NCBI GenBank assembly: GCA_017450435.1
Contig: JAFSTO010000074.1
Span: forward strand, 1 to 39,223
DNA length: 39,223 nt
Origin: Paludibacteraceae bacterium
GTDB lineage: Bacteria > Bacteroidota > Bacteroidia > Bacteroidales > Paludibacteraceae
Direction: 5' to 3'
Part shown: positions 1,585 to 15,749 of the stretch, in pieces
How positions within the stretch are numbered: position 1 is the stretch's first letter
Layout of the letters: each line of letters starts with the position of its first letter
Made by a program: the position numbers and the translations under genes
The notes under the pieces: generated by a model
What the model was told of the DNA's origin: nothing
Seen by the model: the letters and a program-made list of their open reading frames with translations, nothing else
Databases searched by the model: none

Positions 1585-4209
1585 TCAGTCTTGTACCAAA
1601 TGTACATCACACTGTGGGAACGGAATGGATATACCGGCCTCGTTGAGTGCATTGTAGATTATTTCTTTGGCTTTGTAAACGTATGGTATCTGTTCTGCAA
1701 CCAAAACCTTTTGTCTAACAACCAAATCTACAGAGCTTTCGCTCATTTCTCCCATTACCACGTATATACCCTTATCCGGATTAACAACTTCTCGCCCGTA
1801 ACTGTCTTTGGTTCTCAGTACCTGCATGGCATCTACAATCACTTCACGAACCTTCTGAACGTCTGTGCCGTAAGCTACGCTAACAGTTATCTTGGTCAGT
1901 TCGTATGAGTTATTACGGGTGAGGTTGTTAAAGTTCTTGCCGAACAGCGACTCATTAAGGAAAGACATCTCTGTGCTGTCAAGTGTCTCCATCTGTACGC
2001 ATTGGTAGTTGATGGCAGTCACTTTTCCTCTCACACCGTCACATTCTATCCAGTCACCAACACGCAGACGCCCCCCCATGAGTTGGATACCGTAGATGAA
2101 GTTGTTGATGATGTCTTTTAGCGCAATACCGATACCTGCAGACAGACCGCCGGCTATCAAGCCTAAAGAGCCGGTTGGAATGTTCCATACTTGTATAATA
2201 ACTATAGCGTATAAAGCCCACACTAAAACGCTAATCAAACTGTTGCCTAACGAGAGGTTGATTTCATTTGTCCGTATATTTGTCCGTTTGTGCTTGTGCA
2301 TAAAGGAGGTGAAGCTGACATAATGGTATAGAGCATGCAATGCGCGGTTTATGTAGCGCATTACAAAGAATAAGATGATTAACGATACTATACTTATCGC
2401 TGAGATGCTAAACGTTGTAACACTTGTTGACTCGTCTGTGAAAGATATGAACGGCTCGTAGAAATAACGGGTGTACAGGTCGGTAAAGTCGAACATCTTC
2501 AGCGACATCATAGAACTCCATGGCAGCGAAAGTACGGCTATTGTAGGAATAATCACCTCCTTAATCAAATCATAGAACCATGTGGCTCCGAATAGCAATG
2601 TTTCGCCATCATTGCCGGGAGCATAGGTGATGCGCTGGCGCATGTCATTAACACGCTTGTCCAAATATTTGGCTTTGAAGCGACTCAATAAATCCGAAAT
2701 ACAGAATATGGTGAGCAGAGCGGTTAATAGGAAGTACCAACATACCAAATACTGCAGTGCAGCAAAACAGTAGCCGAAGAAGGATATAAAGAAAGCAAAT
2801 GTATAGATTGACAGTGATATCCAGCCGAGAATACTATCTGTGCGAGTAACGTGCTTTCGGGTGCGCAAACATACATATAGCTGCCATAGGACGGCAATTA
2901 ACAAAACAGGTGGAAGTACTATATTCAGTACAATATCGGGAACAAAAGTGTTGCGAAGAATTATAATTGCAAAAGAGGTAAGCAGGGTAGGCACGTATAT
3001 TTTGCCGCCCATCTTTAGTTGGTCAGAACCGAGACGGAGTAATAGTGAACCGGAGGTGGCTATTAGCAACCATAGGAAAGTGTTGATATTCTTTACACCC
3101 ATTCGCGCGTATTCGCTGTCGGAGGTGAAACTGTCAAATACGATGAAATAAAATATTGTACCTATCAATACAGATAGTAGTAGAAGTGATTTCTTAGATA
3201 AATATTTTCTGAAACGAGTAAAACGTTTCAGTAGCCACAGAATAAGAAATATGGGAAGCCATACTAACGATAACGCAACTAATTGGACACCGCAAAGGAT
3301 AACTAAATAGGCTTTTTCTGAACGACCTGATATGTTTTCGCCGGCAAGGTTTGCCCTTAGCATCTCGTCAAAATCATACTGGTCGTACATCTCTCTTTTC
3401 ATCTTGTTCCAATAGTACCCGAACTCGGATAGAATTTCAAGATAAGGTGCTTGACCGTCATCGTAGATATACTTGTCGAGGTCGGTGTAACGTGCCTCCG
3501 CATAGTCGTATGCTTCTTTTACGCGTAGGTATGCTTCTTGATAATAAGTGCTGTCTGCAATCACTACTACGCGGTTCCCGGCATACATCTTTAGAAGTTC
3601 AGAAGCATACATAATACAACTGTCGCGATACATATTACCCATATCGTCTAATACGTATGGTGCTGCATCATTGTCACTGCCGGCAAATTCGATTATCTCC
3701 TTCTCCAATGAGGTCATTGTGCCGGCTAAGTACATCTCTAACGAATCGTTATGATATAGCAGACTATCAGGAATTATATTGTCTGCAATGTCATTCATTT
3801 CAGGCGGGAGTCGCCGAAGCGCTTCTATAAGGCGGGCATAACGCTCTATCTCATAATCCAGACCAAAGATTATCTGGTCATAAGGGCGTTTGTCCTTGTT
3901 GAAATCGTGATAGCCTGCCGTTACTTTATGCAGAGCAAATGCCATATCCATCGTACGCTTCTGCTCCTGTGTATATAGAAGAAGTGATAACTCGTTGGTG
4001 CTCTTTATTACGCTAAGCATTCGCTGATGCTGACGTTCATAGTCTTCGTTTAATGCCTTTTGTGCCTCACTACGCTGAATATATGAGGTCTGAAGCTCTA
4101 TACGAAGTTCTTGAAGGATCTTCGTCAACGAACGTTCCTGAGATGCCGAACATATAACGAACGGCAAGAGCAATAATGCTATCGAACATAGGAGTTGCTT
4201 TGTTTTCAT
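1585..4209 (-). CDS. Large MscS-family mechanosensitive channel
   Basis: 874 residues, far longer than minimal MscS (about 290), resembling the large MscK/MscM-type channels. A signal peptide (MKTKQLLCSIALLLLPFV) is followed by a periplasmic, partly helical region to about residue 300, then a run of membrane segments between about 300 and 680. The MscS core follows at about 680-870. Its pore helix is rich in Gly and Ala (GLIAGGLSAGIGIALKD), then comes the cytoplasmic beta domain with GGRLRVGDWIECDGVRGKV. The expected role is to gate ion and solute release on hypo-osmotic shock, from the inner membrane. It is the last gene of the minus-strand envelope locus, 100 bp after the TamB-Omp85 gene; that gap holds only a 5-bp GCCGG/CCGGC hairpin, so co-transcription is possible but unproven. 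Confidence 0.9.
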   Translation of the reverse strand: MKTKQLLCSIALLLLPFVICSASQERSLTKILQELRIELQTSYIQRSEAQKALNEDYERQHQRMLSVIKSTNELSLLLYTQEQKRTMDMAFALHKVTAGYHDFNKDKRPYDQIIFGLDYEIERYARLIEALRRLPPEMNDIADNIIPDSLLYHNDSLEMYLAGTMTSLEKEIIEFAGSDNDAAPYVLDDMGNMYRDSCIMYASELLKMYAGNRVVVIADSTYYQEAYLRVKEAYDYAEARYTDLDKYIYDDGQAPYLEILSEFGYYWNKMKREMYDQYDFDEMLRANLAGENISGRSEKAYLVILCGVQLVALSLVWLPIFLILWLLKRFTRFRKYLSKKSLLLLSVLIGTIFYFIVFDSFTSDSEYARMGVKNINTFLWLLIATSGSLLLRLGSDQLKMGGKIYVPTLLTSFAIIILRNTFVPDIVLNIVLPPVLLIAVLWQLYVCLRTRKHVTRTDSILGWISLSIYTFAFFISFFGYCFAALQYLVCWYFLLTALLTIFCISDLLSRFKAKYLDKRVNDMRQRITYAPGNDGETLLFGATWFYDLIKEVIIPTIAVLSLPWSSMMSLKMFDFTDLYTRYFYEPFISFTDESTSVTTFSISAISIVSLIILFFVMRYINRALHALYHYVSFTSFMHKHKRTNIRTNEINLSLGNSLISVLVWALYAIVIIQVWNIPTGSLGLIAGGLSAGIGIALKDIINNFIYGIQLMGGRLRVGDWIECDGVRGKVTAINYQCVQMETLDSTEMSFLNESLFGKNFNNLTRNNSYELTKITVSVAYGTDVQKVREVIVDAMQVLRTKDSYGREVVNPDKGIYVVMGEMSESSVDLVVRQKVLVAEQIPYVYKAKEIIYNALNEAGISIPFPQCDVHLVQD

Positions 4210-4309: not shown

Positions 4310-7300
4310 TTAGAACGGATAGCCTATGCCGAAATTGACGCGCAAGGCATCCAGAGCTGAGGGGATATTGAAGTAGTTGGTGATAGGCTGTGTCTTGTCA
4401 ACTTTGCCGTCCTTGTCGTATTTGTATGTCTGATACGGAGCATGTATTCCAATACCAAGGTCAAGCCGGACGACGAGTCCGTCAATATCCAGTCTTAAAC
4501 CGGCACCTGTGCCAAGAGCTATCTGTTTGGCAAAGTCAGGGTTGTTGTATAGACCATCGTGTAGGTCGTCAGGAATTTCTAAACGCGTGAGATAATCTTC
4601 ATATCCTGCGGCTTTGTATAGGTCGGTGGTAGTGTACCAGTTCCATACGTTCCCGGCATCAACGAAGGTGGCACCATACAGCTTCCATACGATAGGAAAA
4701 CGGAGCTCAAAATTGGCCTCTAACTTAACGTCACCGGCGTGGAAGAAACTCTGGTTGTACTTAGCGGAATAGAAGTTACCCGGACCGTATGACGATGGTG
4801 ACGAGGCGCGCAACGAGTTGGGGCCACCTGTGTAGAATGCCTCCGACAACGGAGCGAACGACGAGTTTCCTAACGGTATATTAGCTCCGGCAAAAAGCCG
4901 CGTGGCGATACATACTTTGTCCGTGATGTTGAACTTATTACGTAGCTCGGCTGATAGTTTGACAAACTGGTTGAAGGAAATCTTGCCGAGCGGTTTGTCT
5001 TTGTCGTTCCACTTGTGTCCGAAGGCGCAATAGATGGAGTTGATAAGGTTACCTGATTCCTTCACATCAAGGTCTAACATTGTGTTGACAGCACGTTTGG
5101 CACGATAGTCGTTGTATGTAAATGAGTAGCCTATTGATGGTATAAACTCGTTTCCGGCAAGCACTTTAATCAATTGCGGGTACTCGGCTGCCTTGTCAAG
5201 CAGGTTTTCGGACTCGGCTTTCATCAGCACTACGGAAAGCGAAAACGGCGTAAAGGAGTGAACGACATATTTATTAAAAGGCGAACGTATGAAGTAAGTG
5301 AAAGAGCCGGATAATTTGTGTACGCCGTAGCCGCCGGCAATGTTCTCATATTGGTAACCTAACATATAGCGCGTGTCGCCATCCGGTGTGTTGCCGCCGC
5401 CCCAGTGAAGATATGGGAAGATGAGCGAAGCGTTGACACCGAGTTTGTAGGTATCGGTTTTCTTAGGATCACCGGGATATCTGTCACGCAGCGCCCAATA
5501 GTAAGCACCATTACCTTTGAGCGAGAACGTCTCGCCGTGCCCAAGCAGGTTTTTGATTGATGACTTGAGCGTGAGGTTAGGACCAAGGCTGTTGTTCGAG
5601 CGATACGCAATGCCGGCATCGGCTGTCAAGCCGTAGGTGCGGGATATGGTGTCACCCTTGTATAACTCACGACGGTGCCAGTCTTTGGTGGCTAATATGC
5701 TTAAACCGGATTTCTGCAACTCGCCCTCAAGGACGTTATTATAGTCGCGTTGTGAGAATAATCTTAGTTGTACGCCGCCGTCCTTCGTCAGTTTATAATC
5801 TGCGGTAATGCTGCGGAGCAAACCATTGTTATTGTTTACTTCGGGATTGTCAGAGATAGACGAGCCGATGGTGACGCGCAACTTGTCTTTGAAGAACGAT
5901 TTGCTTATAGCAATGTTCATGTCGTTGGTCTTGCCTACAGCGTGATTCGTTTGGCCGCTGCTGATATCTATATCCACAAGTTTGCCCATTTTTGAGTTCG
6001 CCATAGCAGCGTTTATTCGGCTGTTGATGATTGACGAGAGTGCGTAGCCGTCTCTTTCTGCCGCCACATTGCTCTCACCTACATACATGCCGGTGGCGAG
6101 TAGGGTCGCTGCCAAGCCTTCGCGAGTCTCTTCGTCTAATGAGGTCAACTCTCGTGTAATAGCCTCGTCTTGGGGTGCCTCAAGGAAGAAACTGATGGCT
6201 TTCAAACCTATTGAATCGACCACGCCATTAACGCGTACACCGGTGTTGAAATTTACGCGTCGCGTCTCTTCTTCGCTGGACTCTACGTCTGCTTTTACCT
6301 GTTGTGATGCAGACACATTCAAGAGTGTTTGTCCTATCGGACCGTTGAATGCGATATGACTACCGGAATCAACGCGGAATGGCATAACGGGGTAAATCTT
6401 TGGTGAATAGCGTATGAGACCATCATCCACGTTCACGCGTCCGCCTAATGCCAACTCTCCATCTGCTACACCGTATCTTACGTTCACTTTGCCGTGAGGT
6501 TTGACTTGAGCGAGGTTCTTTTTGTCAATAGGATAAGTGATGTCAGTTGTCGGCAGGATAGTGACATCCACATCCGCAACGATGCTATCCAATGCGCCAG
6601 TTACTGTGCCGTGTATATCGGTGGCAAGGTCTCCGTAAACGGGGATAGGTCCGTCTTTGACTAACTTGACAGGAGCAAAACTATCGGCACTAAGGACAAC
6701 GTTAAGTTGCATGCTGTCCAGGTCAAGTCCGCCGGTAAGGGTCAGAGCTGTGCTGTCAGCGCCGTAGATGGGCAGACCGTTGAGGTCAACGTGGTTGTGC
6801 TCCATGACTATGGGCGTCTCTCCCAAGCTAAGTTCCACTTCGTAAGGTTTGTATTTAGCTGCAACACTGAGCGGAAGCACTTCGGCTGAAAGATCAAGAC
6901 GAGAGGGCAGACCATCTGCGCTTGCCTTTGCTCTGACGGCACCTCGCAGGTCAATGTCGGCAAGGTGGATGATGCTATCCACAAGACTGAGAGGTATATC
7001 GTCCAAGCGAACATCGGCACGCAGTGCGTTAGAATATCGGTCAGAGGGTGATACGTTTATGTCTGCCGTGCGGCTACCGAAGTTCATATCTCCGAGTGAC
7101 AGGCTGTCTAACGTCAGTCGTCCGTTGCCGTTGAGCTTACGTCCGTTGCGTTCCACATCGAAACGCAGTGCGGCGTCAGTGCATAGGTCATGTAGCGTCA
7201 TCGCACCATCCGTCAAACGGCTGTCGGCGCGGAGCGACACGTCCGTTCTGCTTTCGCGCATCTGCACCCGCATAGCTGCTTTAGCTGCAGGCAGACGAAG

Positions 7301-9109
7301 CGCCGTGCTGTCTTCAGGGTGCTCTATTTCCGGAATAGAGGCGTCAAGCGATAAGGCTGTTTGTGTAGTGTCGGACCGGAGTGAGAGTGCCACTTTGTTA
7401 ATATCAAGTCCGGTACGCTCAATGATATGTTGCACCGGACTGCCATTGCTGAGTACAATGTCTGCCGATAGTTCGGGAATGAAACGGCGAAGTGTGTCTA
7501 ACATTGTTAGGTCACGGAGCGTGACAATAGGATTAATCAGTGCTGTATCGCCTACAGCTTTCAATAGTGGCTGCAACTTATTAACAAGTCGTAACACATG
7601 CATCGGAGTAGCAGCTTTCACACTCAAGCCTTCCGTGGCTAAATTAAGTGCGGTGGCACTGTCTGTTGCGAATGTTAATGACAGGTGTTCGGCTTCAAAG
7701 TCTTCGCCTGCTACGTGAGCGCGGATTTTGTGCATGTCTGAGTGATAATCCACAGCCATCTGTTCAGGCTTCATGAAGTCTGATACCATGAACTGATGTT
7801 CCGTCTGAGCGGTTAGTTGCAATGCACTGTCTGACATATTGATTGGTAAATGTAGCGTACCGTCAACAGTTTGGTTGGCTAACTGTGCATTAAGCTGAAT
7901 TCCGGAAACGTTGATGTTGCCGTAGATAGCATCCTTGAGGTGCATTTTCACACGGCTTCTCATTGCTCGTGAGTGTGGGTTGATACCTTTGCCGGCAGCA
8001 TCAATCTCACCGGCCAAAACAATAGGAGTGTTGTCGTTGAGGAATGGAGCAAGGTTAACACGTTCCACATCCACATTCACATCGTAGGCCTCATCATCAA
8101 TGTCGTAGTAACCTCTTGCGCGTGCCTTGCTGCCGCGAAAATCTGCATCGGCTATAACGTCAACGCGCATGGTCTCTAAGTTGAAAGCTGTGGTTTGTAC
8201 ATCAGCTTTGGCACCAATGGAATCGCTGCGTGCGTGAAGGCCGTTGGTCGTAATTAGGGATTTGTTCAGGTCAACGCTTGCATCGCCGTAAATAGTGTCA
8301 ACGGGAATAGACAACTTGCCGAGGGTTAATGCCAGGCCACCGACATTAATCCGGCTTACATCATATAGGTTATTACCGACATCCACTATTCCCTTTACGT
8401 CCAAAGAGGCTGTTTGGATATCCAGTCCGAGTGGGGTAAGCACAAAATGTATGTTTCTCAGTTCTGCATCCGGCACCTCAAACTTCAGCGGTATTGTTGT
8501 CGTGTCGTGAGCGGTGGTATCGGGCGGAGTCTCGCGCAGGTCTATGCCAACATAAGTATCGTCAAGGCGCAAGCTGTGAAGGGGAAATTCGCCTTTTCCT
8601 ATGTTGAGTTGAGGACTGGTGACATCCAAGTATTTGACTATAGCATCAACACCTACTGCGGCAATCAGAGAGTCAGAATGGAAGGTGGTTCGTGCCAATT
8701 GCAGTTTATCTACCACAATCGGGGTGGAAAGGATGTTTTCTGTGCTGTCTGACGTTAGCAGGTTTGCACTGAGGCGAAGTGAATGTACATATACCAGTGT
8801 GTCCAGTCCGCGATGACCTACAAACAAACTGTCAATCTCTACTTGTAGAGGAAGGTCGCTTTCTCCCTTATATGCATGATAGAGTACAAGAGGGGAATGA
8901 TAGAAAGGCGAAAGATATATCCTTCCGAGGTCAATATCCCAATCCGTTTTTTCGTTTGCAATCTCCACCCCCTTTTGTAGTACAGCAGTGCGTGCAGAAG
9001 GGGTATAAACAACTATCACTGCTCCGATAAAAAGCAGTAATACAATACCCGCTACTATTCCTATCAGAGCGAGCGGTATTTTCCACAACAATGAGCGACC
9101 AATGTTCAT
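4310..9109 (-). CDS. TamB (AsmA-like) protein fused to Omp85/TamA-type barrel
   Basis: I start at the ATG at 9109 (1599 residues); the frame opens upstream only through a TTG at 9142. Residues about 7-38 form an N-terminal membrane anchor. A long beta-rich AsmA/TamB-like repeat region follows to about 800, then a TamB C-terminal (DUF490-type) domain at about 800-1137, ending in the characteristic RDYNNVLEGELQKSG. The frame continues without a break into an outer-membrane barrel (about 1145-1599, nt 5677-4310). Its features match the Omp85/TamL family: LGPNLTLKSSIKNLLGHGE at the barrel start, the FYTGGPNSLRA loop-6 motif near residue 1425, and a C-terminal strand ending GIGYPF. No POTRA domains are seen between the parts. 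TamB and TamA/TamL are normally separate proteins that together insert outer-membrane proteins or move lipids. Here one chain could run from inner to outer membrane. Neighbours are a barrel protein upstream and MscS downstream. Confidence 0.85.
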   Translation of the reverse strand: MNIGRSLLWKIPLALIGIVAGIVLLLFIGAVIVVYTPSARTAVLQKGVEIANEKTDWDIDLGRIYLSPFYHSPLVLYHAYKGESDLPLQVEIDSLFVGHRGLDTLVYVHSLRLSANLLTSDSTENILSTPIVVDKLQLARTTFHSDSLIAAVGVDAIVKYLDVTSPQLNIGKGEFPLHSLRLDDTYVGIDLRETPPDTTAHDTTTIPLKFEVPDAELRNIHFVLTPLGLDIQTASLDVKGIVDVGNNLYDVSRINVGGLALTLGKLSIPVDTIYGDASVDLNKSLITTNGLHARSDSIGAKADVQTTAFNLETMRVDVIADADFRGSKARARGYYDIDDEAYDVNVDVERVNLAPFLNDNTPIVLAGEIDAAGKGINPHSRAMRSRVKMHLKDAIYGNINVSGIQLNAQLANQTVDGTLHLPINMSDSALQLTAQTEHQFMVSDFMKPEQMAVDYHSDMHKIRAHVAGEDFEAEHLSLTFATDSATALNLATEGLSVKAATPMHVLRLVNKLQPLLKAVGDTALINPIVTLRDLTMLDTLRRFIPELSADIVLSNGSPVQHIIERTGLDINKVALSLRSDTTQTALSLDASIPEIEHPEDSTALRLPAAKAAMRVQMRESRTDVSLRADSRLTDGAMTLHDLCTDAALRFDVERNGRKLNGNGRLTLDSLSLGDMNFGSRTADINVSPSDRYSNALRADVRLDDIPLSLVDSIIHLADIDLRGAVRAKASADGLPSRLDLSAEVLPLSVAAKYKPYEVELSLGETPIVMEHNHVDLNGLPIYGADSTALTLTGGLDLDSMQLNVVLSADSFAPVKLVKDGPIPVYGDLATDIHGTVTGALDSIVADVDVTILPTTDITYPIDKKNLAQVKPHGKVNVRYGVADGELALGGRVNVDDGLIRYSPKIYPVMPFRVDSGSHIAFNGPIGQTLLNVSASQQVKADVESSEEETRRVNFNTGVRVNGVVDSIGLKAISFFLEAPQDEAITRELTSLDEETREGLAATLLATGMYVGESNVAAERDGYALSSIINSRINAAMANSKMGKLVDIDISSGQTNHAVGKTNDMNIAISKSFFKDKLRVTIGSSISDNPEVNNNNGLLRSITADYKLTKDGGVQLRLFSQRDYNNVLEGELQKSGLSILATKDWHRRELYKGDTISRTYGLTADAGIAYRSNNSLGPNLTLKSSIKNLLGHGETFSLKGNGAYYWALRDRYPGDPKKTDTYKLGVNASLIFPYLHWGGGNTPDGDTRYMLGYQYENIAGGYGVHKLSGSFTYFIRSPFNKYVVHSFTPFSLSVVLMKAESENLLDKAAEYPQLIKVLAGNEFIPSIGYSFTYNDYRAKRAVNTMLDLDVKESGNLINSIYCAFGHKWNDKDKPLGKISFNQFVKLSAELRNKFNITDKVCIATRLFAGANIPLGNSSFAPLSEAFYTGGPNSLRASSPSSYGPGNFYSAKYNQSFFHAGDVKLEANFELRFPIVWKLYGATFVDAGNVWNWYTTTDLYKAAGYEDYLTRLEIPDDLHDGLYNNPDFAKQIALGTGAGLRLDIDGLVVRLDLGIGIHAPYQTYKYDKDGKVDKTQPITNYFNIPSALDALRVNFGIGYPF

Positions 9110-9163
9110 TGAACGATGTCGTTTAGTTAGGCTGCCTAACAATTTTGTCAGACTGTCTCATAT

Positions 9164-10001: not shown

Positions 10002-13000
10002 TTATTTTGTTCCACCGCCGAGGGCTATATACAGGTCAATAAGGCTTATCATTCCATTATATCGGTTCGTGACATCTGCGAGTTGAGCCTTGAGGTATGC
10101 CTCTTGTGCTGTAAGTACCTCAAGGTAAGTTGCCTTGCCTTTTTTCATCAGTTCGCACGTGCCGTTATAAGCATCGCTCTGCGTGGCGAGCAGTCGTCTG
10201 TAGAGTGCGTCTTGCTCTTGAGCGTTGCGGCAACGGAAGATAGCATCGTTTACTTCGCGTCCGGCACGAAGCATAGTCTCAACATAACGGTTAGCTGCTT
10301 CCTCTTGCTCTAAGCGTGCTACTTGTAAGTTCGCCTTGAGTTTGCCGCCGGCAAAGATTGGTTGTGCCAAGCCGAGTACTGCGTTCATTAGTAGTTGTCC
10401 CGGGTTAACCACTACTCCGCCGTTGTTAGTCCAGCCCAAAAGTCCTGACAGAGAAAGGGCAGGGCAGAACGCTGCTTTTGCCATGTTAGTCTGATAGAAC
10501 GCTGCGGCAACGTTGCGTTCTGCGGCACGCACATCGGCGCGGTTGCTTAGTTGTGTTGCGGGAATAGGCTCAAGGGTCCATTCTGCAAATTCATAACTTG
10601 TCCAAGGTGAACGAACCACGGAGTGGGGCTCTTCGTTCATCAGTTGACACATGGTAAGTTCCAGTGAGTTGATCTGCTCTAATAATTGCTTGCGTTGTAT
10701 TTGTACGTTGATGAGCGAAGCTTCCATCTGCCCGACGGATGGTGAATAGGCTTGGCCGTTCTTTACAAGAACACGTTGCACCTCCAGAACGCGTTGCCAG
10801 ATTAGTTCAGTGCTGTCAATGATGGTGGCTTGATAGTCAAGTAGTTGCAGCTGGGTGTAAACTCTTGCCATCGTTGCCACAAGATTGGCGTGTGCTGCTG
10901 CTAAGTTGTCGTCTGCTTGTTCCCTCAGTACCTGTGCCTGTCGTTTGCGGTTGGTTATGGTACCCAATCCTTCACCTCCCCAGTTAAGCGCAAGCGGTAT
11001 TTGATAGCTGAGTACAGCGCCTGATGTGCCGCTGCCCGGGGTGACAGTACCGGAGACTCCTACGTTGGCCGTGTTGATTGCCAAGGTAGGCAAGAAACCG
11101 AGTTTGGCGGCACGCAGCCGTGCGTCAGCTTCGCGGATGGCCAGCTGCCTCGAACGATAATCAACGTTATTGGCCAAAGCGGTTTTGATATACCCTTGCA
11201 GCACGGGGTCTTCTATGTACGTTTGCCAATCTGCCTCGCTGACCGCCGTTACTATACTGTCTTGCTCCGGCTGTTGAGGTGCCTCATATCGCTTGAAGAC
11301 ACCGCAGGAGGGGAATAGTGTGCAAAGAGTCAATGTACCGAGTACAAGTACCGTTGTTATCTTGTTCTTTTTATCGGAAACCGGTGTCGAGGTATGGGGC
11401 GCATCAGAGGTGTTCTGTGAAGCCGAAGTTTCAGTGTCCTCATTGACCGGCTTTTCTCCTCCTTGGAAGCGTTCGTGTAGCATTTGGAAGATGATATAGA
11501 ACGCAGGTACAACAAATACAAGTGCGAGTGTTCCCACTGCCATACCTCCTGTTACTCCGATCGCGAGTGCTCGGTTGCCGTTAGCGCCGGCGCCGCCTTC
11601 GATGATAAGAGGAATCATTCCGGCAATCATTGTTACGACGGTCATCAATATAGGTCTGAGTCGGTCTTCACATGCGCTTAATGCCGCCTGAAGAATAGGC
11701 ATTCCTTGTTTGCGTTTTTCTACGGCAAACTCGGTAATGAGGATAGCGGTCTTGGCAAGTAGTCCGATTAGCATGATGACACCGGTCTGCAGGTAGATAT
11801 TGTTTTCTTGTCCGCAGAGCCATGAGAATGCGAATGAGCCCATCAGACCGAAAGGAACGGACAAAAGCACTGCCAGCGGAATAAAGAACGACTCGTACAG
11901 AGATGCTAATATCATATAAATAAGCAGGACGCAGACAAGGTAGATAAGTGCTGTGAGGTTGGATTTGCTGTTTGCCTCAAGCTCGCGGCTCATACCGCCA
12001 TACTCGTAAGCATATCCTGTGGGTAGGTGTTCTTTTGCTACCTCGGCAATAACCTTTTGCACATCACCCTCGCTGTAGCCGCTGTTGGGTTGTACGGAGC
12101 AGGCTATTGACTGATAGAGGTTGAAGCGTTTTTGTGTGGCAGAACCGACAGCCGGTATAAGGGTTACGAACTGCGAAATAGGAGCCATCTTACCACTTAC
12201 TATTTGACCATTTACTATTTGGTCATTTAGTTTCACAAAGATGTTATTGAGCGAGTTCGGGTCGAGCCTATACTCAGGTGCGGCTCCTGCCATTACGCGG
12301 TACACCTTTCCATACTGGTTGAAATTGCTTATATAAGCACTGCCGCAATATGCTCCAAGCGTGTTGAGAACAACGTCCGGCGATATGCCTGCACGGTCGC
12401 ATTGTGTGGCATTAACATCCACCTTGTACTTTGGGAACGACTCTGAATAGAGCGACATCGCCATCTGCACTTCCGGGCGTTTCTGCAGTTCGGCGAGGAA
12501 GGTATTGACCACTTCGTTGAAGTGTGTCATATCACCGCCTTGCAGGTCTTCCATCTGCAGGTCAATAGCGTTACTGTTTCCATATCCGGGTATCTGCGGC
12601 ATCTGGAAGGGGATGATTTGCGCATCTTTAATATCTTCGCACGAGAGGTATAGTTTGCCCATCACGTAGTCGATGTAGTGCTCATAGCCTTTACGTTCGT
12701 CCCAAGGCTTGAGTCGGATAACCAGCGTGCCGTAACTGACGCCCGTTCCTGACAATAGTCCGAAGCCGGAAATCTTGGCATAACTCTCCACCTCTTCTAA
12801 TCTCAGCACATGTTCCTCTACCTGAGCCATTATCTTATCCGTCTCCACGAGTGGTGAACCTGCAGGAGCAGTAACATCCACCATTATTACTCCCTGGTCC
12901 TCTTGCGGAACGAGTCCGGCAGGAAGGCTTCTCATGGCAAACACCATTGCTATAACGGCTGCCAACAGCCACAACCATGCTCGACCGGGTTTTTGCAGGA

Positions 13001-14603
13001 AGTGTGTTACTCCGTTTTTATACTTGCCAAGAATAGCATTGTATCCTGCCTCGTAGGCTGACTTGACCCAATAGTTGAGTCCCTTATGCTGCGTCTCTTG
13101 CGCCTCTTTCTTCGGGCGGAATAGAACAGCTGTCAGAGCGGGGCAGAGGGTGAGTGCAGAGATACAACTCAGTCCCACGGAGCTGGCAATGGTTATACCG
13201 AACTGGGTGAAGAACGTGCCGCTGGTGCCCGGCATGAAGGTGACAGGAATAAACACTGCCATGAAAACAAGCGTACAACTGATAACGGCTACCGTCACTT
13301 CGCTCATGGCATCCTTGGTGGCTTTATACGCTGATGTATATCCCGACTCCATTTTTGCCATTACGGCTTCTACCACCACAATGGCATCGTCAACGACGGT
13401 TCCGATTGCCAATACTAATGCAAAGAGTGTGAGAATATTCAGAGAAAAACCAGCAACTTTTACCACAGCAAACGTGCCTAATAAGGAAACTATGATTGAG
13501 ATAGAAGGAATAAGCGTTGCCTTGAAGTTCTGCAGGAAGAAATATACGACAAGAATCACAAGGATAATGGCTATTATCAATGTCTCCACCACGTTGTGGA
13601 TGGCTGCATAGAGAAAGTCATCGCTTGTCTGTAAAATAGTAAACTCCATCCCGGCCGGCATATTCTCTTTTATATCGTCGTATAGTTCATTGATGGCTGC
13701 GTTGACCTGTGTAGCATTAGCTCCGGGGGCTTGATTGATAATAAATGCCACACCTGGTTGGCCGTCCACTTTGGACGAGAAACTATAGCTTAGTGCACCC
13801 AGTTCCACGTCTGCAACATCACGCAGGTGCAATACATTGCCGTCTGACGTACGTAGCACAATAGACTCAAACTCTTCAATTGACTGCAACCTGCCTTTGT
13901 ATTCAAGGTTGTATTGGTAAGTGTTTCCGCTCTGTTCACCGAGTGAGCCGGTGGCTGCCACCATGTTCTGATTGCCGATAGCTGCAAATATATCTTGCGG
14001 TTCAAGATTATATTGAGCCATCACGTCAGGCTTCATCCATATTCGTAGCGAATAGGTGTTACCTAAGTTTTGCACCGCTCCGACACCGGTTACACGTAGC
14101 AGACGAGGCTTGACGTTGATGTCAATATAGTTGGCAATAAAGTCATTGTCGAACTTCCCGTCGCGGCTGACAAGAGCGGCAATCTGCAGGATGTTATTCT
14201 GTCTTTTTTCCACTTTCACTCCCACGCGTGTCACTTCTTGCGGCAATAGTCCCAATGCAGCCGACACACGGTTTTGTACATTGACAGCTGCCATGTCAGG
14301 GTCGGTACCCTGCTTGAAAAACACGTTGATACTCACTTCGCCTGTTGCACTGGCTTCTGAGGTCATGTATGCCATGTTTTCCACACCGTTGACCGCCTCT
14401 TCGATTGGCATGACAACGGACTTCATTACAGTGTTGGCATCTGCGCCTGTGTAGGAGGTGGTAATCATCACCGTTGGCGGAGCTATATCGGGGTACTGCT
14501 CTATAGGCAGAGTCTTGAGGCATATAAAGCCAATCAAAGCGATAAGCAGAGAGATACACACTGCCATCACTTTTCTATCTACAAATATATTTCCTTTGTT
14601 CAT
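10002..14603 (-). CDS. HAE1-type RND efflux pump fused to TolC-like outer-membrane factor
   Basis: 1533 residues in one frame. Residues 1 to about 1045 are a complete AcrB-like RND pump: the proton relay pair Asp405-Asp406 in GTVVDDAIVVVEAV, the partner Lys951 in LIGLLAKTAILITEF, and two large periplasmic porter regions. A hydrophilic linker rich in Ser, Thr, Asp and Glu (about 1048-1081) leads to a hydrophobic segment ending in a lipobox, Leu-Phe-Pro-Ser-Cys1100. After it comes a full-length outer-membrane factor (1100-1533) with the usual OMF helical hairpins and Ala/Gln-rich coiled coils. OMFs of this type are normally separate lipoproteins. The fusion either adds a 13th membrane helix and keeps one chain, or is cut at Cys1100 by signal peptidase II. 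The gene follows the adaptor gene by 40 bp. An in-frame repeat insertion lies at about residues 792-805. Confidence 0.93.
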   Translation of the reverse strand: MNKGNIFVDRKVMAVCISLLIALIGFICLKTLPIEQYPDIAPPTVMITTSYTGADANTVMKSVVMPIEEAVNGVENMAYMTSEASATGEVSINVFFKQGTDPDMAAVNVQNRVSAALGLLPQEVTRVGVKVEKRQNNILQIAALVSRDGKFDNDFIANYIDINVKPRLLRVTGVGAVQNLGNTYSLRIWMKPDVMAQYNLEPQDIFAAIGNQNMVAATGSLGEQSGNTYQYNLEYKGRLQSIEEFESIVLRTSDGNVLHLRDVADVELGALSYSFSSKVDGQPGVAFIINQAPGANATQVNAAINELYDDIKENMPAGMEFTILQTSDDFLYAAIHNVVETLIIAIILVILVVYFFLQNFKATLIPSISIIVSLLGTFAVVKVAGFSLNILTLFALVLAIGTVVDDAIVVVEAVMAKMESGYTSAYKATKDAMSEVTVAVISCTLVFMAVFIPVTFMPGTSGTFFTQFGITIASSVGLSCISALTLCPALTAVLFRPKKEAQETQHKGLNYWVKSAYEAGYNAILGKYKNGVTHFLQKPGRAWLWLLAAVIAMVFAMRSLPAGLVPQEDQGVIMVDVTAPAGSPLVETDKIMAQVEEHVLRLEEVESYAKISGFGLLSGTGVSYGTLVIRLKPWDERKGYEHYIDYVMGKLYLSCEDIKDAQIIPFQMPQIPGYGNSNAIDLQMEDLQGGDMTHFNEVVNTFLAELQKRPEVQMAMSLYSESFPKYKVDVNATQCDRAGISPDVVLNTLGAYCGSAYISNFNQYGKVYRVMAGAAPEYRLDPNSLNNIFVKLNDQIVNGQIVSGKMAPISQFVTLIPAVGSATQKRFNLYQSIACSVQPNSGYSEGDVQKVIAEVAKEHLPTGYAYEYGGMSRELEANSKSNLTALIYLVCVLLIYMILASLYESFFIPLAVLLSVPFGLMGSFAFSWLCGQENNIYLQTGVIMLIGLLAKTAILITEFAVEKRKQGMPILQAALSACEDRLRPILMTVVTMIAGMIPLIIEGGAGANGNRALAIGVTGGMAVGTLALVFVVPAFYIIFQMLHERFQGGEKPVNEDTETSASQNTSDAPHTSTPVSDKKNKITTVLVLGTLTLCTLFPSCGVFKRYEAPQQPEQDSIVTAVSEADWQTYIEDPVLQGYIKTALANNVDYRSRQLAIREADARLRAAKLGFLPTLAINTANVGVSGTVTPGSGTSGAVLSYQIPLALNWGGEGLGTITNRKRQAQVLREQADDNLAAAHANLVATMARVYTQLQLLDYQATIIDSTELIWQRVLEVQRVLVKNGQAYSPSVGQMEASLINVQIQRKQLLEQINSLELTMCQLMNEEPHSVVRSPWTSYEFAEWTLEPIPATQLSNRADVRAAERNVAAAFYQTNMAKAAFCPALSLSGLLGWTNNGGVVVNPGQLLMNAVLGLAQPIFAGGKLKANLQVARLEQEEAANRYVETMLRAGREVNDAIFRCRNAQEQDALYRRLLATQSDAYNGTCELMKKGKATYLEVLTAQEAYLKAQLADVTNRYNGMISLIDLYIALGGGTK
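12189..12228 (-). repeat. 15-nt tandem repeat inserted in-frame in the pump gene
   Basis: On the minus strand, AAATGACCAAATAGT (12214-12228) and AAATGGTCAAATAGT (12199-12213) are followed by a partial unit (12189-12198). They encode the unusual peptide NDQIVNGQIVSGK at about residues 792-805. RND pumps of this family usually have a short turn before the MAPISQFV-like segment, so the repeat appears to lengthen a surface loop by roughly ten residues. Related sequence occurs at 14605-14651 and, more weakly, at 35642-35669. Confidence 0.65.
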
Positions 14604-14604
14604 A

Positions 14605-14651
14605 AAATGATTATATGATTAAATGACCAAATAAATGGTAAATTACCAAAT
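14605..14651. repeat. Second copy of the AAATG(A/G)(C/T)CAAATA repeat family
   Basis: The spacer between the adaptor and the pump-OMF gene carries AAATGACCAAATA (14621-14633, plus strand), an exact 13-nt match to the unit inside the pump gene, followed by AAATGGTAAATTACCAAAT. It fills the 40-bp gap and reaches over the stop codon of the adaptor gene, so it forms that protein's last codons. Confidence 0.55.
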
Positions 14652-15749
14652 CACTCTGTCTTTTTCATGTACGTTAGCCGCCCCTTTGGCTACAATGGTT
14701 TCTCCTTCTTCTGCACCTGAGATGATAGCTGCACGTGTGCCGTCGCCCAATTCTTCTATCTCAACAAGAGCACCGGTGGCAAGGCTGTCAGCGCCAACTT
14801 TGTAAACCAACACTTTGTCTTGTATGCGTACGATAGCAGTCAGCGGTACCAGCATCACGTTTTCCCATTCAATAGGCATCACTACGGAGCCTTGCATGCC
14901 GGAGAATAGCTCGCCTTTCGGGTTGGGGAACGTTGCATAACATGTGATGGAGCCGGTCTGCCGGTCCACCATACCTGAAAGACTGGTGACACGTCCCTTT
15001 TCTTGATACTCGCTGCCGTCCTTGAATTTGAAAGTGAGTGGTGGAGTTACTTTTATTATTTCGTCCAGTGACCCTAATTCGCTCACAATAGCGTGTACCT
15101 GACTTTCTGTGAGGGAGAAACTGGCTTCCATATTGTTAACCCCGGCTACGCGTGTTAGCATGCTGCCCTCGTTTATAACATCACCTACGTGGGGTAGAAT
15201 ATTCCCAACCAATCCGTCCACCGGACTCTTTATCGTGCAGAAGTTAAGTTGCAGTTCTGCATCTCTCACTGCCGCCCGTGCCTGCGTTACTTGTGCTTCG
15301 GCAGATTGCAGTACGTTCAGACTTTTGCGTAACAGGTAATCGCTGATAATACCTTGTTCTGCCAATTCTTTGTTGCTTTCTGCTTCCAATTTGGCATTGT
15401 CGCGATTGGCAATGGCAGTCTGGAGATCAGCCTGTGCATGCGCCATATTGTTTTCTGCATTTCTGCTGTCAAGAACAAACAACACCTCTCCGGCCTTCAC
15501 GCGTTGACCGTCTCTGACTTTGATTTCGTTCAATGTTCCCGTCCTGCGTGAGACGATAGACACATCGCCTGTGCCGCGTACCGCTGCACTCCATGTCAGG
15601 GGAGCGGTAACTGTCTCACGAGTGAGCTTGAGGGTTTCATAACTCGTATGCTGTTCTTCAGGCATCTTGATGCAACTCGGCAGACTAACTAAACCGAATG
15701 CCAATGCCGCATACAACATCTTTGCAACTGCTTGTGATTTCATAACCAT
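14643..15749 (-). CDS. RND efflux periplasmic adaptor (MFP) lipoprotein
   Basis: 368 residues (366 from the second ATG, at 15743). The signal peptide ends in Leu-Pro-Ser-Cys, so it is probably a lipoprotein like AcrA. The biotinyl-lipoyl-like halves flank a helical hairpin (about residues 95-165, rich in Ala, Gln and Glu), with the returning lipoyl half in LNFCTIKSPVDGLVGNILPH. A beta-barrel domain and membrane-proximal domain follow. The protein bridges pump and outer-membrane factor, here supplied by the single fused gene 40 bp downstream, so the usual three-gene tripartite pump is encoded by two genes. The promoter may be that at 16044-16074. The palindrome at 15821-15839 is a possible operator. 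Substrates cannot be predicted. Confidence 0.92.
   Translation of the reverse strand: MVMKSQAVAKMLYAALAFGLVSLPSCIKMPEEQHTSYETLKLTRETVTAPLTWSAAVRGTGDVSIVSRRTGTLNEIKVRDGQRVKAGEVLFVLDSRNAENNMAHAQADLQTAIANRDNAKLEAESNKELAEQGIISDYLLRKSLNVLQSAEAQVTQARAAVRDAELQLNFCTIKSPVDGLVGNILPHVGDVINEGSMLTRVAGVNNMEASFSLTESQVHAIVSELGSLDEIIKVTPPLTFKFKDGSEYQEKGRVTSLSGMVDRQTGSITCYATFPNPKGELFSGMQGSVVMPIEWENVMLVPLTAIVRIQDKVLVYKVGADSLATGALVEIEELGDGTRAAIISGAEEGETIVAKGAANVHEKDRVIW

Follow-up and report, generated by a model that had tools for sequence, protein, structure and literature searches.

The window, i.e., the whole stretch of 39,223 nucleotides of contig JAFSTO010000074.1 (assembly GCA_017450435.1, Paludibacteraceae bacterium), harbors on its minus strand a gene whose product joins a TamB2-type region and an Omp85/TamL2-type barrel in one chain (Table 1). 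TamB, which is anchored in the inner membrane, and its outer-membrane barrel partner are normally two proteins, linked by POTRA domains. The frame of the fusion is open throughout (4310-9142, minus strand) and comprises 1610 codons when counted from the TTG at 9142 (the ORF reading); the ATG at 9109 is likelier to be the start than this TTG.

Table 1. Features of the fusion gene and of its neighbors, with positions in the window
Feature	Positions	Strand	Remarks
TamB2-TamL2 fusion gene	4310..9109	(-)	1599 aa from the ATG at 9109; stop codon 4310-4312
N-terminal membrane anchor, aa 27-45	9008..9064	(-)	most hydrophobic 19-residue stretch, mean 3.16
TamB2-type region, predicted beta-taco, up to the invariant W1155	5678..9109	(-)	profile match, tree, alignment with TamB2 ends
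C-terminal TamB strands (pseudosubstrate region), about aa 1073-1155	5678..5926	(-)	strand limits from sequence reading
Linker, aa 1156-1168	5639..5677	(-)	13 residues; 3-22 residues across 85 distinct fusions
Omp85/TamL2-type barrel without POTRA, aa 1169-1610, GIGYPF end	4313..5638	(-)	NCBIfam, Pfam, tree, profiles
Loop-6 motif Arg, invariant (SLRAS in the window copy)	4808..4810	(-)	R in 89/89 fusion rows
omp283, predicted secreted outer-membrane barrel protein, 283 aa	9164..10015	(-)	signal-peptide-like start (sequence reading), C-terminal F
RND-TolC fusion	10002..14603	(-)	AcrB-type RND permease aa 5-1039, TolC-type channel about aa 1107-1531, one frame
Adaptor gene	14643..15749		precedes the RND-TolC fusion
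MscS-like mechanosensitive channel	1585..4209	(-)	downstream of the TamB2-TamL2 fusion

The barrel was recognized by two collections of models. The NCBIfam model lipo_TamL (NF052279) matched aa 1168-1610 from position 334 through its end (positions 334-747 of 747, E 5.6e-93), and Pfam Omp85 (PF01103) matched aa 1391-1609 (E 1.1e-15, 58.4 bits, cut-off 24 bits). The 400-bit cut-off of lipo_TamL, which applies to a whole TamL, is reached neither by the window copy (312.7 bits) nor by nine fusions (301-318 bits). In all nine of these the match starts at model position 333-338, and at position 1-4 in the stand-alone TamL rows that exceed the cut-off (n = 34). No POTRA family was found in the window protein at E<=1, either with Pfam or with NCBIfam. 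The initial annotation, which had described a single frame leading from a membrane anchor and a TamB-like region straight into an Omp85 barrel with no POTRA in between, is borne out in each of these parts, and an N-terminal hydrophobic stretch of at least 2.0 is found in 83 of the 85 distinct fusions.

As for the TamB-like region, Pfam TamB (PF04357) had no match at E<=1 in the window copy; it matched one of six aligned orthologues (9.2e-13; 59.5 bits for the G021 copy). Since this model misses the window copy, the TamB assignment is based on profiles and on one orthologue. The profile of the TamB part matched that of TamB2 with a probability of 100% (E 6.7e-75) over 1105 columns, i.e., nearly the full length. 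A pooled TamB profile gave a weak match to the solved E. coli TamB (E 0.03), and the fusion C-terminus, used by itself as a query against solved structures, returned just two weak BamA matches (E 0.027). At the junction of the window copy there is no signal peptide, no transmembrane stretch (top hydrophobicity 0.4) and no lipobox, and a free barrel made from an internal start was rejected on these grounds. A lipobox-like pattern occurs in two of 88 fusions, the window copy not being one of them, and at the junction in neither.

A scan of a genome collection, using a six-sequence alignment as query, matched 272 stretches, 193 of which code for a relative, and the best 80 of these 193 were used. 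Each of the 80 matched from near the N-terminus through aa 1610, with no stop or frameshift at the junction, so that the window protein is a natural TamB-Omp85 fusion, as had been proposed, consisting of an anchor, a TamB-type region, a linker and a barrel devoid of POTRA domains. The whole match lies in one frame in 77 of the 80 loci, two of which (L096 and L100) hit a contig end at 5'; in two more (L050 and L076) the first 6 and 18 nt of the match precede the frame start, and the frame of L086 opens some 620 nt into the match, far from the junction. Together with nine genomes these loci form a set of 89 fusion rows, 85 of which are distinct over the last 1000 aa. A fusion of the same genus (L014 52-5124, 1691 aa) seems to owe its extra length to a tandem repeat, 70-80 residues long, in the TamB arm.

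All the 80 named records (best 80 of 193) belong to Bacteroidota; their titles give Bacteroidales or its families in 78 cases and Bacteroidia/Bacteroidetes in two. They all come from uncultured sources, the stated ones being animal rumen, other stomach parts and faeces. Fusions are present in at least six of 120 species genomes drawn from the family and in at least five of 393 drawn from the order, that is, in at least nine of 507 different genomes and under three family codes (f1, f2 and f101). The draw from the phylum (E<=1e-60) gave one of 118, the window's own genome. All these searches were queried with the window protein, and fusions of other origin may exist elsewhere. The ratio dN/dS is low at the join and on both sides of it: among eight pairs, where no value is given if synonymous sites were saturated, dN/dS was 0.047-0.123 at the junction (six pairs computable), 0.039-0.071 in the barrel (six pairs) and 0.106-0.163 in the TamB part (four pairs), and pN was lower in the barrel than in the TamB part in all eight.

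The fusion is an extra beside intact TamB1 and TamL1. The window genome, where the existence of a stand-alone TamA/TamL had been raised as a question, contains a separate TamB of 1525 aa on contig C15 (PF04357, 6.5e-51) and a separate full-length TamL of 787 aa on contig C33. Among 23 chosen genomes, the nine with a fusion have one stand-alone TamB and one stand-alone TamL each, the 11 with an unfused second pair have two of each, and three relatives with neither have one of each. A second tamB is present in many Bacteroidales, and it is followed by tamL on the same strand in 19 of the 20 regions fetched; the two frames overlap or abut in 17 of these regions and are separated by gaps of 82 and about 840 nt in two.

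In the barrel tree (62 barrels, including 21 of the 89 fusions), the fusions form one clade (SH-aLRT 100), and this clade together with 16 TamL2 stands apart from 22 TamL1 (SH-aLRT 100). The TamB tree (63 rows) agrees, joining the fusions to TamB2; SH-aLRT is the sole support measure in both trees, and both carry a long-branch warning. The same affinity emerges from HHalign comparisons of profiles built from 88 of the 89 fusions (those over 1500 aa): E 3.2e-80 for the barrel versus TamL2 and 3e-50 versus TamL1, and 6.7e-75 for the TamB part versus TamB2 and 1.2e-16 versus TamB1 (represented by its last 950 aa), with swapped-profile controls at 0.1 and 0.2% probability. Directly after the loop-6 Arg, 74 of the 89 fusion rows have A, nine have S and six have G; A also stands there in 15 of 16 TamL2, and G in all 22 TamL1 and in three odd TamL2 of one genus, which fall with TamL1 in the barrel tree. 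The tamB-tamL pairs of genus g4 (G036, G003 and G080; L153, L154 and L156) fall with TamB1/TamL1 in both trees and are perhaps a separate duplication; G036, G003 and G080 were kept in the trees and excluded from the profiles. The names TamB2 and TamL2 are given by gene order and kinship, the Flavobacterium johnsoniae proteins being absent from the trees.

These comparisons indicate that the fusion very probably derived once, from an accessory tamB2-tamL2 pair. An origin from the canonical TamB and TamL was rejected, since both occur as separate proteins and since, in the trees, the fusion groups with the second pair instead. Concerning its spread, three genomes of other families (G219, G402 and G335) share with the window 61-64% identity in the fusion, 37-49% in BamA pieces, 32-34% in TamL1 and 25-30% in TamB1, whereas in G021, of the same genus, the values are 69% for the fusion and 80% for BamA. 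This inversion of the fusion/BamA order between families and within the genus suggests that the fusion was transferred between families, unequal rates being the alternative.

The way the two halves are joined can be read from the alignments. The C-terminal strands of TamB2 align through W1155 of the fusion, a residue invariant in all 85 distinct fusions, and TamB2 ends slightly past the strand matching aa 1146-1155. Within the junction region, conservation is lowest in the linker, whose length, counted between columns W1155 and T1169, is 13 residues in 57 of the distinct fusions, 15 in 18, 20 in three, 22 in four, five in two and three in one (L096). The fusion appears to have removed all that lies between the TamB end and barrel strand 1, POTRAs included, leaving a short joining stretch.

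In E. coli, according to the available sections of PMC12800296, the last strand of TamB (1251-1259) pairs with strand 1 of TamA, as indicated by the cross-links T267-E1258 and E269-Q1256, and hybrid and non-hybrid particles occur in cryo-EM at about 1:1. The E. coli TamB end LLYQFEF(1259) aligns with SILATKDW(1155) of the fusion (HHalign, E 4e-7 overall, column confidence 1-2 of 9), and MAFFT aligns TamA T267 and E269 with T1173 and D1175. HHalign of the barrel against TamA puts E269 at D1175 in one run, with T267 two positions off the MAFFT placing, and misplaces strand 1 in two of three runs. By alignment, the E. coli cross-links map to T1173-D1154 and D1175-T1152 of the fusion. The cross-link numbering is antiparallel, and therefore the TamB end would lie at the start of strand 1. 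On this basis we lean towards a covalent hybrid barrel made of the TamB last strand and barrel strand 1. A model from Borrelia, where the barrel of BamA is completed by strands of TamB (PMC13382580, in the part available), points in the same direction, while the linkers of 13-22 residues present in 82 of the 85 fusions are long for a tight hairpin and speak against it. As to the earlier proposal that TamB itself takes the place of the POTRAs, the POTRAs are indeed absent, but it is rather the TamB last strand that is joined to the barrel first strand.

On the whole, it seems reasonably probable that the accessory TamB2-TamL2 pair gave rise to the window protein as a translocation and assembly module made of a single chain, which is held covalently in the hybrid state. 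The signal peptide, the lipobox and the POTRA part of TamL2 are absent from the fusion, and the TamB2-type protein is kept almost to its C-terminus. The N-terminus would act as an uncleaved anchor staying in the inner membrane, the TamB part would form a hydrophobic groove crossing the periplasm, and the C-terminal barrel would be seated in the outer membrane, both membranes thereby being spanned by one chain. Barrel strand 1, starting near aa 1169, would make a beta-hairpin with the last TamB strand (aa ~1146-1155), and in such a covalent hybrid barrel the POTRAs would be unnecessary for recruiting TamB. The likeliest function, though a somewhat doubtful one, would then be to hand hydrophobic cargo, either phospholipid or client strands such as those of omp283, from the groove to the lateral gate of the barrel. 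The 1:1 stoichiometry follows from the chain itself and is fixed unless the chain is cleaved after translation.

TamB-type proteins have been implicated in lipid traffic, and the TAM in barrel insertion (available sections of PMC12800296 and PMC10665443). In F. johnsoniae, the depletion of TamL left outer-membrane lipids and the overall levels of barrel proteins without substantial change, as reported in the accessible text of PMC12045153, where the authors declare themselves without insight into the role of TamB2-TamL2. Deletion of POTRA2 was lethal in E. coli in the authors' assay (PMC12800296, same sections), hence the loss of POTRAs in the fusion could mean a changed function.

Three other explanations were weighed against the single-chain module. 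The joining of adjacent genes by misassembly or by a frameshift in a MAG might be suspected, given that the named sources are uncultured, MAG-type assemblies and that tamB2 and tamL2, where unfused, have abutting or overlapping frames in most of the regions fetched. Nevertheless, the 85 distinct records differ in their flanks and each run through the join in a clean frame, dN/dS is far below 1 across the junction, and about 1 kb of POTRA-coding sequence is missing, for which a lost stop would not account; comparison of frames, flanks and dN/dS among these records led to the rejection of this artefact, whose probability is negligible. The chain might instead be cleaved in the linker after export, yielding a TamB2-like protein and a barrel without POTRA as two subunits, and the poor conservation and variable length (3-22 residues) of aa 1156-1168 would agree with that. 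However, the three-residue linker of L096 would give a protease little room, the join is preserved in 85 distinct records, and the window junction has none of the export signals looked for (signal peptide, lipobox, transmembrane stretch), so that the barrel would hardly be exportable alone; such a cleavage is improbable.

Less improbable than cleavage, and still unlikely, is a barrel that serves as a mere outer-membrane anchor for a TamB-type lipid bridge and that has lost both the lateral opening and the hybrid strands. It would fit with the alteration of the loop-6 glycine of the Omp85 motif in 83 of the 89 fusions and with the lack of a POTRA to feed substrate proteins. On the other side, the change from Gly to Ala is already present in 15 of the 16 TamL2, the loop-6 Arg is invariant, and the barrel has a pN below that of the TamB part in 8/8 pairs. 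Returning to the single-chain module, a fuller form of it is put forward tentatively, in which the C-terminal TamB strands belong covalently to the outer-membrane barrel and either widen or plug it, this being a naturally occurring Omp85 barrel in a permanent hybrid state. One polypeptide, with a helix in the inner membrane and a barrel in the outer one, would make an uninterrupted conduit free of POTRAs; horizontal transfer would account for part of its spread, and a dedicated small barrel client would often be inherited along with it.

The candidate for such a client or partner, a plausible one, is omp283, the gene upstream of the fusion. It has no Pfam family at 1e-3 and a sub-threshold NCBIfam match to an outer-membrane barrel (E 0.021), and the C-terminal F is shared by all 48 distinct homologues with a match of at least 200 aa. 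A match to omp283 was found in 49 of the 85 distinct fusion loci, and in 46 of the 85 it lies upstream on the same strand, with 5-61 nt between match edges. Thirty distinct loci whose upstream sequence exceeds 1 kb lack it, and an obligatory partnership was rejected as a general rule for this reason. Within a set of 31 chosen genomes, omp283 occurs in three of the nine with a fusion and in none of the 22 without one; a fourth match, in the fusion genome G219 (E 1.4e-4), was set aside from this count. In G009 the copy lies about 6 kb from the fusion, and the idea that it is broken was rejected, the stop being located at match residue 6, at the 5' edge, with an open frame after it. A scan for promoters and terminators (24 vs. 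17.8 expected and 15 vs. 11.3) was put to no use.

Other genes recur near the fusion. Adjoining omp283 in the window is a second fusion of inner- and outer-membrane components, of the RND-TolC type, preceded by the adaptor gene; matches to it occur in the flanks of 16 of the 85 distinct TamB-TamL loci, window included, and in nine others of these loci it is 85-88% identical over 1403-1533 aa, above the likeness of the TamB-TamL fusions themselves. MscS-like matches were found in the flanks of seven of the 85 distinct loci, two of them in family f101, with 35-77% identity outside the window. A Kef-type antiporter-like gene, so named from sequence reading (e.g., L049 5714-7150), lies in the flanks of 35 of the 85.

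Among the closest known counterparts is the TamB2-TamL2 pair of F. johnsoniae (Fjoh_1899/Fjoh_1900), described in the accessible text of PMC12045153: an accessory second TAM of Bacteroidota, where the tamL2 start precedes the tamB2 stop, both genes are deletable and the operon occurs in 20 of 30 species. Both parts of the fusion cluster with pairs in which, as here, tamB2 comes before tamL2. In F. johnsoniae, however, there are two genes, and TamL2 is predicted to be a lipoprotein and to have three POTRAs, whereas the fusion is one chain devoid of lipobox and POTRAs. With the hybrid barrel of E. coli TamA-TamB it would share, by alignment, the position of the TamB last strand beside barrel strand 1; in E. 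coli, on the other hand, two proteins are involved, about half of the particles are hybrid and three POTRAs contact TamB (PMC12800296, available sections), while the hybrid of the fusion would be covalent and lacks POTRAs. The elongated MlaD of Veillonella parvula has likewise been proposed to reach, as a single chain, from a lipid-transport domain in the inner membrane to a beta-barrel in the outer membrane, though it belongs to the MCE family rather than to TamB, is hexameric at the MCE domain in the model, and its barrel is not called Omp85 in the sections available (PMC10665443). Omp85 barrels without POTRA are also known from the 'noNterm' group, which has no N-terminal extension, unlike the fusion with its TamB-type arm of about 1150 residues (PMC4104836).

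The initial annotation knew of no described TamB-Omp85 fusion, and none is reported in the titles and abstract openings of the literature searched, which included few subscription papers and no bioRxiv preprints. The words fusion and fused are absent from the main texts of PMC12045153, PMC4494059 and PMC11014939, the sole fusion mentioned in PMC4104836 is a BamA-BamB-like protein, and the word stands in PMC13067283 once, in the biography of an author.

To our knowledge, it is unsettled in the field whether the TamA-TamB hybrid barrel is a working or a passing state and what purpose the POTRAs serve. If the proposed arrangement is true, the joining of the strands together with the discarding of the POTRAs would argue that the TamA-TamB contact is functional and sufficient, and the fusion would offer a molecule in a fixed state to structural studies as well as to assays of lipid transfer and of insertion. 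It would also represent another route, besides that of the elongated MlaD, to bridging the inner and outer membranes with one chain.
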